Part shown: in pieces, positions 7,718 to 16,714 of the stretch
Layout of the letters: each line of letters opens with the position of its first letter
Position numbering within the stretch: the stretch's first letter is position 1
Origin: a virus
DNA length: 22,338 bases
IMG/VR virus record: IMGVR_UViG_3300043467_000556
Span: 1-22,338 of that record
Strand: one strand, 5' to 3'
The notes under the pieces: model-generated
What the model was told of the DNA's origin: nothing
The model's database searches: none
Seen by the model: the letters and a program-made list of their open reading frames with translations, nothing else
Program-made: the position numbers and the translations under genes

Positions 7718-7746
7718 TTTCAATTATTGTGAAATGATAATTGAAA
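7718..7746. other. 10-bp perfect inverted repeat at the distal end of the array
   Basis: TTTCAATTAT (7718-7727) and ATAATTGAAA (7737-7746) are exact reverse complements separated by 9 bases. The right arm runs into the degenerate terminal repeat of the array, so the hairpin sits where the outer half of that repeat should be. Read on the minus strand, the loop contains TTTCAC, which could also pair with the GTGAAA of the neighbouring hairpin at 7689-7705. It may act as a trailer or terminator-like structure for the array transcript. The stem is AT-rich and would be only moderately stable. Confidence 0.5.
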
Positions 7747-8099
7747 TTGTAGACCTCATCCAACTCAATTAACCATTGGTGAACGAATTCCTTCGGGTGT
7801 GACTCCCCTTAAATTTTAGACCTCATCCAACCCACTCCCAAATATACCTTTTCCTTCACAGGTGTGACTCCCCTTAAATTGTAGACCTCATCCAACCTTC
7901 TCTTGGTGAAATCATTTTTGTGTTCATAGGTGTGACTCCCCTTAAATTGTAGACCTCATCCAACTTCGTTACAAGAATGGATGATAATGGAAATGGTGTG
8001 ACTCCCCTTAAATTGTAGACCTCATCCAACAACATTCACATTGTAAGGAATTGTAACAACGCTGGTGTGACTCCCCTTAAATTGTAGACCTCATCCAAC
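7729..8099 (-). CRISPR. CRISPR-like array: six 36-bp repeats, five spacers
   Basis: Repeats lie at 8064-8099, 7995-8030, 7929-7964, 7861-7896, 7796-7831 and 7729-7764. On the minus strand the unit begins GTTGGATGAGGTCTAC and ends AAGGGGAGTCACACC. Four copies are identical, the fifth has one substitution, and the sixth keeps only its first half. The intervening sequences are 33, 30, 32, 29 and 31 bp (from right to left) and are unrelated to one another. A degenerate last repeat at the low-coordinate end implies minus-strand transcription with the leader side at 8099. Lengths fit type II or type V arrays, but I see no strong internal hairpin, no cas gene and no obvious anti-repeat in the window, so the type is unassigned. 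The first repeat lies inside the coding region of the 145-residue gene at 8036-8473. Confidence 0.8.
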
Positions 8100-8473
8100 C
8101 ATCTCTTTGTAAGTTCCTGTGTTTCAGAGTAGTTAAGTCCAAATTTGTCTTCCAAAACTGACCAAATTTCATAATAATTGATATAAACAACCTCATTTTT
8201 TCTATCGTAAATCATAAAATTATGACCTTTTTTAAAACGATATAACGTCCAATCTTCACGTTCTTCGCTCTGAACTGATTCCAGATCGTTAAATAAATTT
8301 AAGAAGTCCATCGGTTCTTTGATGTCAAAAATTTTAAATAAATTATCCAAGGATCCTACAATCTTTACAACAGATTCAAAACCAACTTTTTTAATTAAAC
8401 CCAATAACTTCTCTTTTAAAGAAACGTTTTCTTTGATTAGTTTATATTGGTTTTCAGTTATTATTATTTTCAT
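8036..8473 (-). CDS. Small leader-bearing phage protein whose 3' end enters the CRISPR-like array
   Basis: This 145-residue protein starts MKIIITENQYKLIKEN. I chose the ATG at 8473 over the GTG one codon upstream because the leader then matches those of the genes at 11413 and 11888. The leader holds two (Ile/Leu)-x-Glu sites (ITE and IKE). The rest is helical and charged, with no known enzymatic motif. The C-terminal residues LDEVYNLRGVTP are encoded by the first array repeat, and the last nine residues and the stop lie in the first spacer. The native C-terminus may therefore have been replaced, or the repeat may derive from this gene. It lies between the gp6-like gene and the 1761-residue gene, so a virion role is likely but unproven. 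Confidence 0.7.
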   Translation of the reverse strand: MKIIITENQYKLIKENVSLKEKLLGLIKKVGFESVVKIVGSLDNLFKIFDIKEPMDFLNLFNDLESVQSEEREDWTLYRFKKGHNFMIYDRKNEVVYINYYEIWSVLEDKFGLNYSETQELTKRWLDEVYNLRGVTPALLQFLTM

Positions 8474-8486
8474 CACATATTATTTA

Positions 8487-11408: not shown

Positions 11409-11432
11409 ATTTTTATGGTTTTGTTGGTGTTG
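11406..11432 (-). repeat. 27-bp 3'-end module, copy 1
   Basis: This stretch covers the last codons (ending T-P-T-K-P) and the stop of the 146-residue gene plus 7 bases beyond. It matches the stretch at 11881-11907 at 26 of 27 positions. It is a direct repeat of the 3' end of two adjacent genes. Confidence 0.7.
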
Positions 11433-11853
11433 TAAATTGTGCAACCCAAGTATTTACGGCTTGTTTAAGTCCTGGTTGGGGTAATTGTTGTAAATTACTT
11501 GGCAATTCTTTATTGTAATTAATATTAAACGTTTGTATTATACTATTTCCAATAATACGAGGTCCGTTAGATGTTAACATTGACGAAACTCTTTGTGCTT
11601 CACCTATAGGTGTATTACCATATTTAAATTTATAATGTGTGTCGGTCGCATCAGATTTTCTTTCAACAGATAATTTAATGTTTGGGAACTTAGGATCTGT
11701 TTTAATTTTTGCATCTATTTGTGCATTTAAAATTCCTGCGACTTGATCCATTATTGCTTTAATAGAACTATCCTCTTTAGATTGTTGTTCTTTAATCACA
11801 CGTCTTACAATTCTTGTAAGATCTGATTCTGTTAATCTAATTATTTTTTTCAT
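11413..11853 (-). CDS. Leader-bearing small phage protein (candidate internal/virion protein)
   Basis: This 146-residue protein starts MKKIIRLTESDLTRIVRR and continues VIKEQQ. The leader carries LTE and IKE, both fitting the (Ile/Leu)-x-Glu rule of the T4 prohead protease. After the leader comes a mixed alpha/beta region with repeated Lys and Asp (AQIDAKIKTDPKFPNIKL, then ERKSDATDTHYKF) and a C-terminal TTPTKP. I see no catalytic motif, signal peptide or membrane segment. It lies just downstream of another leader-bearing gene, with a 34-base gap, and both share the same C-terminal tail and 3' flank. A packaged internal protein is a reasonable guess; no function can be read from the sequence. 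Confidence 0.7.
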   Translation of the reverse strand: MKKIIRLTESDLTRIVRRVIKEQQSKEDSSIKAIMDQVAGILNAQIDAKIKTDPKFPNIKLSVERKSDATDTHYKFKYGNTPIGEAQRVSSMLTSNGPRIIGNSIIQTFNINYNKELPSNLQQLPQPGLKQAVNTWVAQFTTPTKP

Positions 11854-11880: not shown

Positions 11881-11907
11881 TTTATTTTTATGGTTTAGTT
11901 GGTGTTG
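11881..11907 (-). repeat. 27-bp 3'-end module, copy 2
   Basis: This is the second copy of the module at 11406-11432, with one mismatch. It spans the last codons (T-P-T-K-P), the stop and 7 bases after the 249-residue gene. The match outside the coding part argues for duplication or recombination rather than protein convergence alone. Confidence 0.7.
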
Positions 11908-12637
11908 CTGGCGTTGCAGTAATCGGTGTAATCGTTGATGACAATTGTGGTCCTTGTCCACTAATAAATGGTGTTATAGTAAAAAATCCTGTGTCTGTAT
12001 TTTGTGTACTTGCTTTAGTTACCCAACTTGAGTATGGTGTTTGATTTTTTGCGACCATACCAAAAGTACCAACATTTGGGTATAATCTTGATTTTACCCA
12101 ACCAAGGTTTTGTAAGTCTGTGATGTCACCACCTCCTACTGTGAATAAACTGACACCCTTTCTTATTGCGTTAACACCATCTGTAACGGTGTAATTATTC
12201 TCTTGGTCACTTTCATTAAAGTTAGTTTTAATTGGTGTTTTCCAAACCCAGATTGTGTTAGTACCATTAAAGTATAATGACCCAATAGTATATTCAGACG
12301 CAATATTAGAACCTAAAACCTCAGGGTTTGTTGTGTTTGCGTTTTTAAATACAACAATCGTTTTACCAACCATACCATTAATATCAGTACCCAAATATGT
12401 TTTATACGCATTAATTACATCTTCGTTTCTTGCGTTTTTAGGTAATGATGTACCCATAAGTTGATTTAAACGATCTAATGTTGGGTTCGGTTGTGTCGCT
12501 GGTTGTGTTGGTGTACCTGTTGCTACCGGCGCGACTGCTGGTGTTCCTTGTTCACCTAAAAATTCTCTAGCAATCGCACTTTTGTGCATACCAAGTATTC
12601 TTGATTTTTCTTCTTCTGTTATTAAGAATTTTTTCAT
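11888..12637 (-). CDS. Leader-bearing phage protein with Pro/Thr linker (249 residues)
   Basis: The protein starts MKKFLITEEEKSRILGMHKS followed by AIAREFLGEQ, so it carries ITE and LGE sites like its neighbours. A Pro/Thr/Ala-rich linker (about residues 31-50, GTPAVAPVATGTPTQPAT) leads to a globular part of about 180 residues with DRLNQLMGTSLPKNARNEDV, then a Thr/Asn/Gly-rich beta region, and a Pro/Thr-rich tail ending ATPTKP. The architecture of cleavable leader, flexible linker and domain suits a protein packaged into the head or attached to the virion, but the function is unknown. A TATAAATA motif abuts the start codon. It is the first gene after the terminator that ends the reductase block. 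Confidence 0.7.
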   Translation of the reverse strand: MKKFLITEEEKSRILGMHKSAIAREFLGEQGTPAVAPVATGTPTQPATQPNPTLDRLNQLMGTSLPKNARNEDVINAYKTYLGTDINGMVGKTIVVFKNANTTNPEVLGSNIASEYTIGSLYFNGTNTIWVWKTPIKTNFNESDQENNYTVTDGVNAIRKGVSLFTVGGGDITDLQNLGWVKSRLYPNVGTFGMVAKNQTPYSSWVTKASTQNTDTGFFTITPFISGQGPQLSSTITPITATPATPTKP

Positions 12638-12707: not shown

Positions 12708-13949
12708 TTAAGATGAACATCCAAAACATTCAAAGTCAGAATTTTCGGGTTTTGGTGGTAAATTAATATTTGTATAATTTATTTTTGGTTGTTCCTGTTT
12801 TGGTATTTCTCTTTTTGTAATGTCTACAGCCAAATGTTTCGCTCCAGTTGAGATAGCCTTTGTTCTAACATAATAACACAATGTTTTTAAACCACTTTCC
12901 CAAGAATGGAAATGTGATGATGTGATTTTTGATAGTGTTGGGTCTGCCATATAGATATTCATTGATTGTGATTGATCAATAAAAGGTGCTCTATCTGTTG
13001 CCATATCAATAAGTTGTTTTTGTGATATCTCCCAAATTGTTTTATATTTTGGTATTAGATGTTCAATTCTTTTTACCTTTTTAATATAATTTTTATCTTC
13101 TGGATCAAGGTAATTATTGAAATTAATGTTCTGGATTGACCCCTCGTTCATAATAATTTCATTCTTTAAATCCTCACACCATATTCCAATTTTTTCAAAA
13201 TCATTAATTAAATATTTGTTAACAATCGTAATTTCACCCCCAACAACACGTCTATTAAATATTGCGGAATGTGCTGGTTCTGTCATTTCATATGAACCGG
13301 TAATTTTTGCCGACGAGGCTACTGGCATCTGAGCCGTAAATAGTGAGTTACAGACACCGTATTTATTAACGTTTTCTTTTAATGTTGACCAATCCCAAAA
13401 TAAACTACCCTCATTTAACCCCCACATATCAAATTGAAACACACCTTGTGACATCGGTGACCCATCAAAATAGTCATATGGTTTATATTTACCCTCAATA
13501 CATAGTTGATTACTTTCGTAAATCGCACCATAGTATATCGTTTCAAATATTTCTTTATTAAGTCGTTTTGCTTCTTCTGATGTGAAAATATAATCCATTA
13601 AGTAAAAAACATCCGCTAAACCTTGTACACCAATAGCGATTGCTCGTTGTTCTAGACCACCCTTTCTACCTTTTTCAGTTGAGTAGTTGTTTATATCAAT
13701 TACTTTATTTAACGATCTCACAACCTTTCTAACCTCTTGGAATAATAACTCGTGATTAAATTTACCCCCTTGTATAAAATTCTTTATAACCATTGATGAT
13801 AATGTACAGATCGCTGTGGTTTCCTCGTTTGTCACTTGGAAAATTTCACAATTATGTACCAATATATTATTAGCATAAAAACAAGATGTTTCTGGTACTT
13901 GGATGTCGTAAACATCCTCTTTTTTGTTTAGTTTAGTTATTTTAATCAT
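12708..13949 (-). CDS. nrdA: C-intein fused to C-terminal half of ribonucleotide reductase NrdA
   Basis: Residues 1-33 are a C-intein, with VYDIQVPETSCFYANNILV then the terminal His-Asn, followed by Cys at +1 (residue 34). The C-extein (380 residues) is the C-terminal half of the class Ia reductase large subunit. Glu35 corresponds to E. coli Glu441, Cys48 (in TAICTLSS) to the redox Cys462, and Tyr359-Tyr360 (LCYYVRT) to the radical-transfer tyrosines 730/731. The C-terminal ECFGCSS supplies the thioredoxin/glutaredoxin-reduced cysteine pair. Joined to the N-half, the product is about 805 residues, near the size of other NrdA proteins. The start overlaps the endonuclease stop by 8 bases (ATGATTAA), so translation is probably coupled to it. 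Residue equivalences are from memory of E. coli numbering. Confidence 0.93.
   Translation of the reverse strand: MIKITKLNKKEDVYDIQVPETSCFYANNILVHNCEIFQVTNEETTAICTLSSMVIKNFIQGGKFNHELLFQEVRKVVRSLNKVIDINNYSTEKGRKGGLEQRAIAIGVQGLADVFYLMDYIFTSEEAKRLNKEIFETIYYGAIYESNQLCIEGKYKPYDYFDGSPMSQGVFQFDMWGLNEGSLFWDWSTLKENVNKYGVCNSLFTAQMPVASSAKITGSYEMTEPAHSAIFNRRVVGGEITIVNKYLINDFEKIGIWCEDLKNEIIMNEGSIQNINFNNYLDPEDKNYIKKVKRIEHLIPKYKTIWEISQKQLIDMATDRAPFIDQSQSMNIYMADPTLSKITSSHFHSWESGLKTLCYYVRTKAISTGAKHLAVDITKREIPKQEQPKINYTNINLPPKPENSDFECFGCSS
13851..13949 (-). other. C-intein (33 residues) of split NrdA intein
   Basis: This codes the C-terminal splicing motifs (blocks F and G): VYDIQV, then FYANNILVHN, with the final Asn followed by Cys+1. 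Its length and sequence resemble the naturally split NrdA inteins reported from metagenomic phage sequences. It has its own start codon and no endonuclease domain. Confidence 0.92.
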
Positions 13950-15099
13950 ATTCTATATATTTAAATTTTAAATTTCTATGTTTTTCTCGTTTACCTTTAC
14001 AGATCTGAACTATTGCCGAAGGATTTCCGTTAATATCATTTGCTGCTTCAGTTATTGACTCGTAAATTTTTTCGTTTCCTTCATTATCAATACTCATTAT
14101 TTTTAATTTTCTACCTTTTTTAATATCAAATGTAAATTCGGTATTTTCATATTTAAAGATATTTTTACTATCATTATTGTTTTTACATTTTCTACGTATC
14201 ACTTCAACACAAAATCCTGTTTCTTTTGATGCTTCGTGTACATTGTTAAATATTATTTCGTCTTTTTGATTAATATCTTTTTTATAACATATCTTCTTTT
14301 GTTTATTAGTGCGTTTAGGTTTGACATAATCAGATCTTTTACTTTTACTTAAAACTAATTCTTTATTTTGATATTTCCAATAGTAACCTTTATGTTTTCC
14401 ACCATTATTTAATGATTTATATAGACAAACAGGACTTAAATCATATTTTTTTATCGCGTCTATCGTTTTAAGTGTATCAACAATATTTAAAGTTTCAGGA
14501 CATATAACGTCAATAAGTGGTATTCGTTCATATCTTAAAGTTCTTAATATTTCTTTATGTTTTTCGGTAATTTTTCTACCAGTATTCCAATGGAAACCAT
14601 TTTCTTTTTTAAATTTAGAACTAAAACTTTCTTCTTTCGGTCTTTTATAATTAGGATTGTTTTCACCAGACCATCTTTTAGAAGATATTTTATCTATTTT
14701 TTCACGTAAACCAGGAATTACTTTAAATAAATCACCACCCACACCGCCGTCAGCAATATTTGTTAATATCCCGCCGTCCATATTCTTACCGTAAAATTTA
14801 ATTAAATTTTTTTCAACATCCAAAACTTTTTTTTCATCATCATCTTTATATACAATTACAAAATTAGGTTCAAAACCATTTTCTTGTAGTTTTTTAATTT
14901 TATTAAATTTGTGTGGATTAACTATTTTTTTTATATTTCGTTTAACTTCGTGATAATGTATTAAATGTCGTTCAATCCTATTTTTAGATAAAGAATCCCC
15001 TTTACCAACATAGAATGGTTTGTATTCAACAGAACAAAATTCATTATCATAACAACCTTTTTCCGTATCATCTAATAATATATAAACATAATATCTCAT
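13942..15099 (-). CDS. GIY-YIG homing endonuclease inside fractured nrdA
   Basis: This 385-residue protein has an N-terminal GIY-YIG nuclease domain: YVY at residues 4-6, YVG at 30-32, Arg at 41/44, a likely catalytic Glu96 in LDVEKNLIKFYG, and LTNIADGG at 112-119. Downstream, residues about 140-190 (GENNPNYKRPKEES, then TGRKITEKHKEILRTLR) resemble NUMOD3-type DNA-binding modules. The C-terminal part has two or three repeats resembling IENR1/NUMOD1 helix-turn-helix modules (NNVHEASKETGF and ESITEAANDINGNPSAIVQI). This is the domain order of phage homing enzymes such as I-TevI relatives. It stands alone between the two intein halves and is not fused to either. Its DNA is visibly poorer in G+C than that of the nrd halves, consistent with later arrival. 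Confidence 0.92.
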   Translation of the reverse strand: MRYYVYILLDDTEKGCYDNEFCSVEYKPFYVGKGDSLSKNRIERHLIHYHEVKRNIKKIVNPHKFNKIKKLQENGFEPNFVIVYKDDDEKKVLDVEKNLIKFYGKNMDGGILTNIADGGVGGDLFKVIPGLREKIDKISSKRWSGENNPNYKRPKEESFSSKFKKENGFHWNTGRKITEKHKEILRTLRYERIPLIDVICPETLNIVDTLKTIDAIKKYDLSPVCLYKSLNNGGKHKGYYWKYQNKELVLSKSKRSDYVKPKRTNKQKKICYKKDINQKDEIIFNNVHEASKETGFCVEVIRRKCKNNNDSKNIFKYENTEFTFDIKKGRKLKIMSIDNEGNEKIYESITEAANDINGNPSAIVQICKGKREKHRNLKFKYIEYD

Positions 15100-15130
15100 A
15101 TTTATAAATATACCAATAAAAACAAAACGA

Positions 15131-16714
15131 CTATATGTTAATATCTAAATTGTCATTTTCTAATAAATTATCAGCCCGAACATATCCTCTATTCTTTGTG
15201 TATATTAAATGGTCTGGTGTACATTTAATTGAATATCCGCTTTCTTCGTCATAAATTTCTAAAAGTTCACTATCTTTTCTTGTTAATTTACCAGTCAAAA
15301 TATCAACAAAAATTCCGTCTTTACTTTTTATTTTTAAACGTTCAGAACATTCTATCAATTCAATAACTTCAACCATTGTTAAATTTTCAATATTACCGTT
15401 TTCTCTCTGGATTATTAACTCAACGTCACCAGTTAAACAACATAAATTGGACTGTTTGATGACACCGATGTTTTGGTGGTTGGTTTTTCTATTAGCACTA
15501 TCTTTAGCAGCCAAATAAGGAACACCAGTTTCAACTTGTGATTCAATGATTTTTGACCATATATCTTGTGCTTTAACTTTTTTACCTAAACCCAAACTAA
15601 CCGCCTTATTATAGTTTGTTTCGTATTCATCACCATAACATTCTTGTAGTGGTTTAATTCCAGATTTAATAATATCACTTGGGCAAAATAAATACCAGTC
15701 ACCATTGTTCTTAACCGCTTCCATAAAATTATCTGGTATCCAAAGTGCTGTGAATAAATCACGAGCCCTTAACTCTTCAGCACCTGTGTTTTTCTTAATT
15801 TCCAATAAATCAATAATGTCTTTATGCCAAGGTTCTAAATAAATTGCCGCGGATCCTGGTCTACGACCTTGTTGGTTAAAAAATCTTAATGATTCATTAA
15901 CAATTTTAAGGTATTTCAATAAACCACCAGCATAACCACCAGATGTTGATATTCTACTTTCTTTACTTCGGATATTAGACATTGCCAATCCAATCCCCGC
16001 GGCATCAGATGAAAATGTTGAGATATCTGTCAATGTATCCAAAAGACCTTGTCTTGAATCCGCATTATTATAATGTAATACACACGACGCTAATTGAGGA
16101 ACTTTTGTTCCAGAATTAATCATAATTGGTGTTGCTTTAGAGATTAACTGTTTTGATAATGATTTATAATAATCAACCGCCTCTTCAAAAGTATTGGTTG
16201 TCCACAATGCAACACGCATATACATATGTTGTGGTCTTTCAATCGTTTTACCGTTTGATTTTTTTAATAAATACATTTCTTGTAACGATCTCCAAGCAAA
16301 ATAATCAAAGTTATAATCGTTTTCGTGTTCAATTACCGCGTCAATATTTTCTTCACCATACTCTTTAATTGTTTCAATTAGTATATCGTTAATAATACCT
16401 TCTTCATAAAGTTCAAACATTGTTTGTGTAAAACTAGCATTTGTTTCTTTGTGATATGATGATATTGCAACCGTTGCCGCTAACCTTGAGTAGTCGTGGT
16501 GACTACCTGTATATGCTGCAGCAATCTCATATACCAACTTGTCCAACTCTTTTGTTGTTACTTCACCTTCTGTTGGTACAGATGTAATTACTTTAATAAA
16601 GATTTCGTCAGAATTAACGTTTAACCCTTTAACGGATTTTTTAATTCTGTTGTATATTTTTTGGGGATTAAATGATACGATATCCCCATCTCGTTTAATT
16701 ATTTTTAGTGACAT
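15131..16714 (-). CDS. nrdA: N-terminal half of ribonucleotide reductase NrdA fused to N-intein
   Basis: Residues 1-425 are the N-extein of the class Ia reductase large subunit, which makes dNDPs for phage DNA synthesis. An ATP-cone-like regulatory domain covers about residues 3-92 (IIKRDGDIVSFNPQKIYNRI). Cys211 in QLASCVLHY matches redox Cys225 of E. coli, and ARDLFTALWIPDNFMEAV and RRPGSAAIYLEPWH are family signatures. The extein ends QSNLC, where Cys425 corresponds to the thiyl-radical Cys439. Residues 426-527 are an N-intein beginning CLTGDVE with a block B histidine in CTPDHLIYT. The reading frame stops naturally at the end of the intein half. The gene follows nrdB with a short gap, in the operon order helicase-nrdB-nrdA. 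Confidence 0.95.
   Translation of the reverse strand: MSLKIIKRDGDIVSFNPQKIYNRIKKSVKGLNVNSDEIFIKVITSVPTEGEVTTKELDKLVYEIAAAYTGSHHDYSRLAATVAISSYHKETNASFTQTMFELYEEGIINDILIETIKEYGEENIDAVIEHENDYNFDYFAWRSLQEMYLLKKSNGKTIERPQHMYMRVALWTTNTFEEAVDYYKSLSKQLISKATPIMINSGTKVPQLASCVLHYNNADSRQGLLDTLTDISTFSSDAAGIGLAMSNIRSKESRISTSGGYAGGLLKYLKIVNESLRFFNQQGRRPGSAAIYLEPWHKDIIDLLEIKKNTGAEELRARDLFTALWIPDNFMEAVKNNGDWYLFCPSDIIKSGIKPLQECYGDEYETNYNKAVSLGLGKKVKAQDIWSKIIESQVETGVPYLAAKDSANRKTNHQNIGVIKQSNLCCLTGDVELIIQRENGNIENLTMVEVIELIECSERLKIKSKDGIFVDILTGKLTRKDSELLEIYDEESGYSIKCTPDHLIYTKNRGYVRADNLLENDNLDINI
15134..15439 (-). other. N-intein (102 residues) of split NrdA intein
   Basis: It begins with catalytic Cys1 (codon 15437-15439) in CLTGDVELII (block A) and carries block B as CTPDHLIYTKNRGYVRADNL. 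The length is typical of the N-part of a naturally split intein. No endonuclease domain is fused to it. The preceding extein residue is itself a cysteine, so two Cys codons are adjacent at the junction. Confidence 0.93.

Follow-up and report, generated by a model that had tools for sequence, protein, structure and literature searches.

Introduction

When a spacer is inserted into a non-CRISPR sequence, the sequence at the insertion site can reportedly be duplicated and so become a repeat, a non-canonical mode of spacer integration ascribed to Nivala et al. 2018. Arrays are also carried by viruses. Those of huge phages are compact and often lack adaptation genes, and some of their spacers aim at host genes, one of them at glycyl-tRNA synthetase (Al-Shayeb et al. 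2020, PMC7162821). Viral CRISPR mini-arrays, reviewed in PMC11656645, have one to few spacers and no cas genes, carry the repeat of their host and mostly target related viruses. RNA anti-CRISPRs (Racrs) exist as solitary repeat units, none being reported for type VI (PMC10651486), and mock crRNAs can sequester Cas13b (PMC13187072). Regarding spacer acquisition, the type VI-B array of F. columnare has no cas1 of its own; although the repeats of the two systems differ, it relies on the II-C Cas1 in trans (PMC8092290).

The arrays considered here are exemplified by a 22,338-nt stretch of phage DNA from IMG/VR (record IMGVR_UViG_3300043467_000556), hereafter called the window. They resemble the huge-phage arrays in their compactness, their location on large phages, the apparent lack of adaptation genes and the host-gene spacers. 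However, huge-phage arrays are not described as having gene ends for repeats, nor as many small arrays at paralogous genes, and many come with a Cas effector. Viral mini-arrays are alike in spacer number and absence of cas genes, whereas the arrays reported here have a coding repeat and spacers that match host genes. As with Racrs, a phage-borne repeat-like sequence could occupy a host effector, but it occurs here in arrays with spacers. No report of phage repeats that overlap ORFs turned up in a literature search, and surveys that mask ORFs before the repeat search, such as the Racr search with SRUFinder (PMC10651486), would miss gene-end arrays for that reason. Phage CRISPR-like arrays that grow from the end of a protein gene and are fed by host housekeeping genes suggest a new way to borrow, jam or turn host CRISPR.

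Anatomy of the array

The array (positions 7729-8099) consists of six 36-nt repeats and five unrelated spacers of 31, 29, 32, 30 and 33 nt, by rising coordinate. It runs along the minus strand, as do the flanking phage genes, and on that strand the repeat reads GTTGGATGAGGTCTACAATTTAAGGGGAGTCACACC. Repeat 1 (8064-8099), the gene-proximal one, doubles as coding sequence: it is the 3' end of a minus-strand protein gene (8036-8473, the ORF being also listed from an upstream GTG at 8476) with a core of about 137 residues (MKIIITENQYKLIKEN...WLDEVYNLRGVTP), and it encodes the C-terminus W-LDEVYNLRGVT-P. The frame continues past repeat 1 into spacer 1 (8031-8063, 33 nt) and stops at 8036. Because repeat 1 is a gene end, the array departs from CRISPR arrays proper, in which repeats are non-coding. 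On the same strand and moving away from the gene, repeat 2 (7995-8030) equals repeat 1, repeats 3 (7929-7964) and 4 (7861-7896) are identical copies, and repeat 5 (7796-7831) has one change. The terminal repeat (7729-7764) keeps only its 5' part of about 21-23 nt, being reduced to the half GTTGGATGAGGTCTACAATTT in the minus-strand reading. In type II guides, the kept 5' 23 nt would correspond to the tracrRNA-pairing segment. Spacers 2 (7965-7994, 30 nt) and 5 (7765-7795, 31 nt) are discussed below; spacers 3 (7897-7928, 32 nt) and 4 (7832-7860, 29 nt) are without identified source. Rfam and tRNA searches of the window gave no match. The exact 36-mer is found in 17 other IMG/VR contigs, nearly always in repeat-spacer arrays and in many of them with other spacers, so that it is not a chance sequence.

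The original prediction had described a CRISPR-like array in a T4-like phage and had seen no cas gene nearby, and this holds. Its coordinates were right, as was its count of six 36-bp repeats and five unrelated spacers of 29-33 bp, with four repeats identical, the next changed once and the last half degenerate. The decay it saw away from the growing end agrees with the intact proximal repeats and the degenerate one at 7729-7764, and the repeat hairpin is indeed weak (-2.1 kcal/mol). The gene-end nature of the repeat, the many dispersed arrays and the host-gene spacers had escaped this first reading.

Recurrence and mobility

The array-bearing gene represents an unannotated phage family, for which a protein search of IMG/VR with its product returned 88 relatives. 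The phage group that carries it is large and widespread and appears to infect Bacteroidota. Scoring a downstream copy as at least 17 of the 23 nt of the locus's own gene end, this end recurs downstream in about 48-49 of 78 usable family loci, down to about 33% protein identity. The gap between gene end and copy is 28-33 nt in 46 of 49 such loci, and the last repeat copy often keeps its first ~23 nt only. Diverged members (L211, L213, L215, L209 and L183) duplicate their own diverged gene end, so that the repeats arise by local duplication and not by import. In the phage arrays as a whole the repeats are a constant 36 nt and the spacers mostly 29-33 nt (75 spacers), with one to five spacers per array rather than solitary repeat units.

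About ten gene-end array loci are present in the related 296-kb phage G001, where each array follows the 3' end of one of several paralogous genes (~137 codons); the first repeat is again the last 36 nt of the gene and encodes W-LDEVYNLRGVT-P. Some gene copies of this phage form C-terminal fusions with other proteins, of which one looks superoxide-dismutase-like by eye. The window site itself is adjoined by a baseplate wedge gene on one side and a gene for a 1761-aa protein on the other. The flanks of this site are readable in 73 relatives. The array-bearing gene is present in five of these and missing from 64, where a short gap (~70 nt, in one 117 nt) takes its place; the other four have different insertions. 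To judge from these sequence comparisons, the array-bearing gene is a mobile, multicopy module. Two further observations concern individual copies. The G001 region at 238.8-242.7 kb (L035-L036) holds about six tandem family copies with decayed single-spacer arrays, including one superoxide-dismutase-like fusion, and the family member at 3001-3411 of L157 has an in-frame stop, perhaps as a pseudogene or through an assembly error.

Spacer turnover and origin

The window and the related phage G007 have four distal spacers in common and differ in the gene-proximal one (spacer 1). Likewise, L051 shares with L052 and L058 a distal spacer (with a few changes) and a diverged terminal repeat, the proximal spacer being different, and L160 shares one distal unit with the 49.9-kb locus of G001, the rest being different. 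Turnover at the gene-proximal end is thus well supported by three cases. CRISPR adaptation has this same polarity, the gene here occupying the position of the leader. At the window's site, the spacers are wholly different in G001, G003, G009 and G010. One spacer lineage, CTACGCAAACGGCACGGAAGTAATTGGAAAA and variants, is unlike the other spacers in being kept across diverged phages (L194, L151, L060 and G001 at 240 kb); it reads in frame as the tail YANGxxVIGK.

To find the source of the spacers, 65 of them were searched at E<=0.01, with the same spacers reversed as control. Matches were obtained in 36 of 396 Flavobacteriales genomes, versus 2 of 396 for the reversed spacers, and in 16 genomes of a second, partly overlapping sample of 395 from Bacteroidota. 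As these host searches scored only two candidates for each genome, the genome counts are lower bounds. By query position, the matches concern glyS (at least 17 genomes), purC (at least 6), lpdA (at least 5) and pnp, hemE and an amidohydrolase gene (at least 2 each), the target genes being read in a subset of the loci and named from translated sequences. Spacer 5 of the window matches purC (SAICAR synthase) in sense orientation in six genomes, the best of which agrees at 28 of 31 nt. Spacer 2 is antisense to the amidohydrolase gene (25 of 30 nt in two Bacteroidota genomes; FVTRMDDNGN versus AVTRMDHSGN at the protein level), a match of moderate support and weaker than that of purC. The spacers matching glyS, lpdA, pnp and hemE belong to relatives of the window, and for glycyl-tRNA synthetase the agreement extends to the protein level (RPETAQDIFV versus RPETAQGIFV). 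Translations of ~10 residues were also compared with 2 Mb of a single Flavobacteriales genome. Scores above the control maximum were obtained for glyS and one unexplained peptide only; peptides resembling those of rpmA, ntrC and udk were plausible but within the control range and are not counted. A response-regulator match comes from one genome, and a rhuM match of an L211 spacer is kept apart because that spacer is partly palindromic.

Several spacers are, with good support, pieces of host chromosomal housekeeping genes, and the phage arrays share with CRISPR arrays a spacer content derived from DNA outside the element. The G+C content of the spacers (36.4%) is higher than that of the phage (30.3%). 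Since the true host is absent from the genome sample, the method favours conserved genes, and the actual spacer sources may be any host genes. The host targets lie on both strands, sense and antisense being mixed, so that no selection for RNA targeting is visible, and no PAM is visible beside them. The spacers gave no match in 50,697 phage records (INPHARED) and none convincing in 18 related phage records; an action against rival phages, one of the roles proposed for this array at the outset, therefore finds no support. Among the conditions under which the original prediction was to be given up were that no spacer matched foreign DNA and that related phages had identical repeats and spacers without turnover. 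What we found instead are matches to host genes and the three turnover cases. Two other candidate targets were rejected. One relative has a spacer that partly matches, over 20 nt, a nuclease gene of related phages (gp46/SbcC-like by eye); IMG/VR offered nothing fuller, and the best self-targeting matches, at 62-78%, are taken as chance level.

Repeat type and putative writer of the array

The phage repeats resemble those of type VI-B in their letters, and share with them the 36-nt length, spacers of ~30 nt, the GTTG start and the AAGGG and TCAC(A) positions. Against a VI-B profile built from nine repeats of cas13b loci, no other 36-mer among 1.1 million phage positions scores as high as they do, the identity being only 23-25 of 36. 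However, the hairpin of the window repeat (-2.1 kcal/mol, z +1.7) is weak compared with VI-B repeats (-4.6 to -11.2 kcal/mol) and falls outside the range of that subtype. VI-B spacers are complementary to their target mRNA, whereas both orientations are mixed here, and no cas13b was found in the phage records. A II-C origin of the repeat was rejected, with at most 19 matches to arrays at 26 Flavobacteriales II-C loci. The coding repeat end has no clear excess of nucleotide-level (synonymous) constraint (0.71 versus 0.65). Given the limited VI-B identity, the poor hairpin, the lack of a clear constraint excess and the dissimilarity to II-C, the phage repeat cannot be assigned to a subtype; the original prediction had left the CRISPR class open. 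A search of 84,980 species for a host genome with the phage repeat, using a degenerate pattern, had as sole find Riemerella anatipestifer's own Cas13b array. In this array (L023, 3700-5500) many repeats are interrupted by a hairpin-like insert of ~50 nt and alternate with plain repeats.

Neither Cas1 nor Cas13b was detected in the 18 phage records, which are fragments, so that within these records no cas gene accompanies the arrays. A search of the phage records for reverse transcriptase was likewise negative. Of the 25 G001 ORFs of at least 600 aa, 20 were passed through PADLOC, which reported no Cas effector among them. A cas gene elsewhere on the phage, or Cas proteins acting in trans, are possible. 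Type II Cas1 was above cut-off in 79 of the 396 Flavobacteriales genomes. As the phage records searched yielded neither Cas1 nor reverse transcriptase, we infer that the insertions are made by host CRISPR adaptation proteins, most likely type II-C Cas1-Cas2 in trans. A permissive host Cas1-Cas2 would be the most economical writer, given that the VI-B array of F. columnare uses the II-C Cas1 in this way.

Possible functions

There is good support for the anatomy of the array, its recurrence at gene ends, the local duplication, the polarised turnover and, for several spacers, the host origin. The explanation that we tentatively prefer, while putting it at somewhat less than an even chance, is a CRISPR-like mini-array on the end of a mobile gene, written by host adaptation proteins and producing an RNA that serves counter-defence. 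Host chromosomal pieces of ~30 nt would be inserted beside the phage gene by host Cas1-Cas2, most likely of type II-C and in trans, and each insertion would duplicate the last 36 nt of the gene, so that the array would grow from its gene-proximal end. Lying directly behind the gene and in the same direction, the array is presumably co-transcribed with it. In the least certain step, its RNA would load an effector of the host's CRISPR system with guides that do the phage no harm and are aimed at the host. Counter-defence or host attack is thus the function we prefer, with modest confidence. Against this explanation, no known host has this repeat, the stable VI-B hairpin and a visible PAM are missing, a source is identified for some spacers only and the phage records are fragments. 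The mixed strands and the weak constraint on the repeat argue mildly against guide activity on RNA; the avoidance of stops in first spacers, the recurrence and the copy number argue mildly for a function. If host adaptation proteins do write into phage genomes, the defence of the host is recorded, or turned, inside the virus. The arrays also make it possible to test for autoimmunity aimed by a phage, or for decoy RNA, and the phage spacers offer a direct route to host identification.

The arrays could alternatively be neutral scars, left when host Cas1-Cas2 mistakes a repeat-like gene end for a leader-repeat junction, and have no function for the phage. Breakdown of the host chromosome by these phages, should it occur, would make fragments of host DNA abundant for insertion. 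The host-gene origin of spacers on mixed strands is as expected from such accidents, the repeat end has evolved much as coding sequence ordinarily does, and the spacers were not found to aim at rival phages. Spacer insertion outside arrays is described (Nivala et al. 2018, as cited in PMC9456107). The likeness is that a non-CRISPR sequence is reportedly turned into a repeat; the difference is that here this happens in viral genomes, recurrently in one gene family, and is kept over evolutionary time. Against scars speaks that the arrays recur at many loci, on many contigs and in diverged members of the family, with about ten loci in the single genome of G001. In addition, first spacers avoid in-frame stops, 39 of 45 being open compared with 20 and 23 in the other forward frames. 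We consider purely neutral scars rather unlikely.

An RNA decoy, or RNA anti-CRISPR, would have repeats that mimic those of a host VI-B system and tie up Cas13b, the content of the spacers being irrelevant. The top rank of the phage repeats against the VI-B profile and the VI-B-like repeat and spacer lengths are in line with this, and overexpression of mock crRNA lowers Cas13b defence (PMC13187072). However, the identity to VI-B repeats is low and the hairpin of the common repeat weak, the 3' part is lost from the terminal repeat, and a decoy has no need of changing spacers. This makes a decoy unlikely. Still less probable, in our opinion, is a self-contained guide-capturing module, in which the 3' end of the mobile gene would be both protein code and guide-RNA scaffold and would capture gene pieces of the current host; an RNA-guided complex, perhaps including the small protein, would then act on the host without Cas.

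The arrays might also have nothing to do with CRISPR and be a gene-end cassette system, in which C-terminal peptide tails are swapped by recombination between the repeats. In favour of this, translation runs into the first spacer, which tends to lack stops, and the YANGxxVIGK tail is kept across phages by its spacer lineage. A spacer length held at 29-33 nt regardless of reading frame, and host-gene pieces in any frame and on either strand, make tail swapping very doubtful. A conventional mini-array, directed at rival phages with the help of Cas proteins of the host as known for archaeal viruses (PMC11656645) and huge phages (PMC7162821), is the explanation we disfavour most and is highly improbable here: the spacers match host genes, with no match in the 50,697 phage records and none convincing in the 18 related ones.

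The array-bearing protein and neighbouring genes

The predicted fold of the array-bearing protein is confident (pLDDT 92.9). No convincing Pfam or PHROGs match was found for it, and comparison with solved and predicted structures gave no Foldseek match at E<=0.001 and no VIA-align match at Z>=5. Its N-terminus is MKIIITENQYKLIKE, and a similar start is present in 29 of the 325 ORFs of G001, where 0.6 are expected; most of these 29 tagged proteins have (L/I)xE near residue 15, 22 or 29. The tag variants MKIIITENQYKLIKE, MKKIIRLTESDLTRIVRRVIKE and MKKFLITEEEKSRILGMHKSAIAREFLGE occur in the window in the gene starting at 8473 and in ORFs 11413-11853 and 11888-12637, all on the minus strand, and in the G001 loci L024-L038. 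In the family alignment, the tag is absent from some members. It resembles the capsid-targeting sequences cut by a T4-type prohead protease. By this resemblance, the array-bearing gene product may be packaged into the capsid and injected. The injected internal proteins of T4 include one anti-defence factor, and a packaged, injected protein would fit a counter-defence role.

Elsewhere in the window (12708-16714, minus strand), the gene for the large ribonucleotide reductase is split into ORFs 15131-16714 and 12708-13949. The ORF between these two parts (13942-15099) is homing-endonuclease-like, and intein-like ends are present, all as judged by eye.
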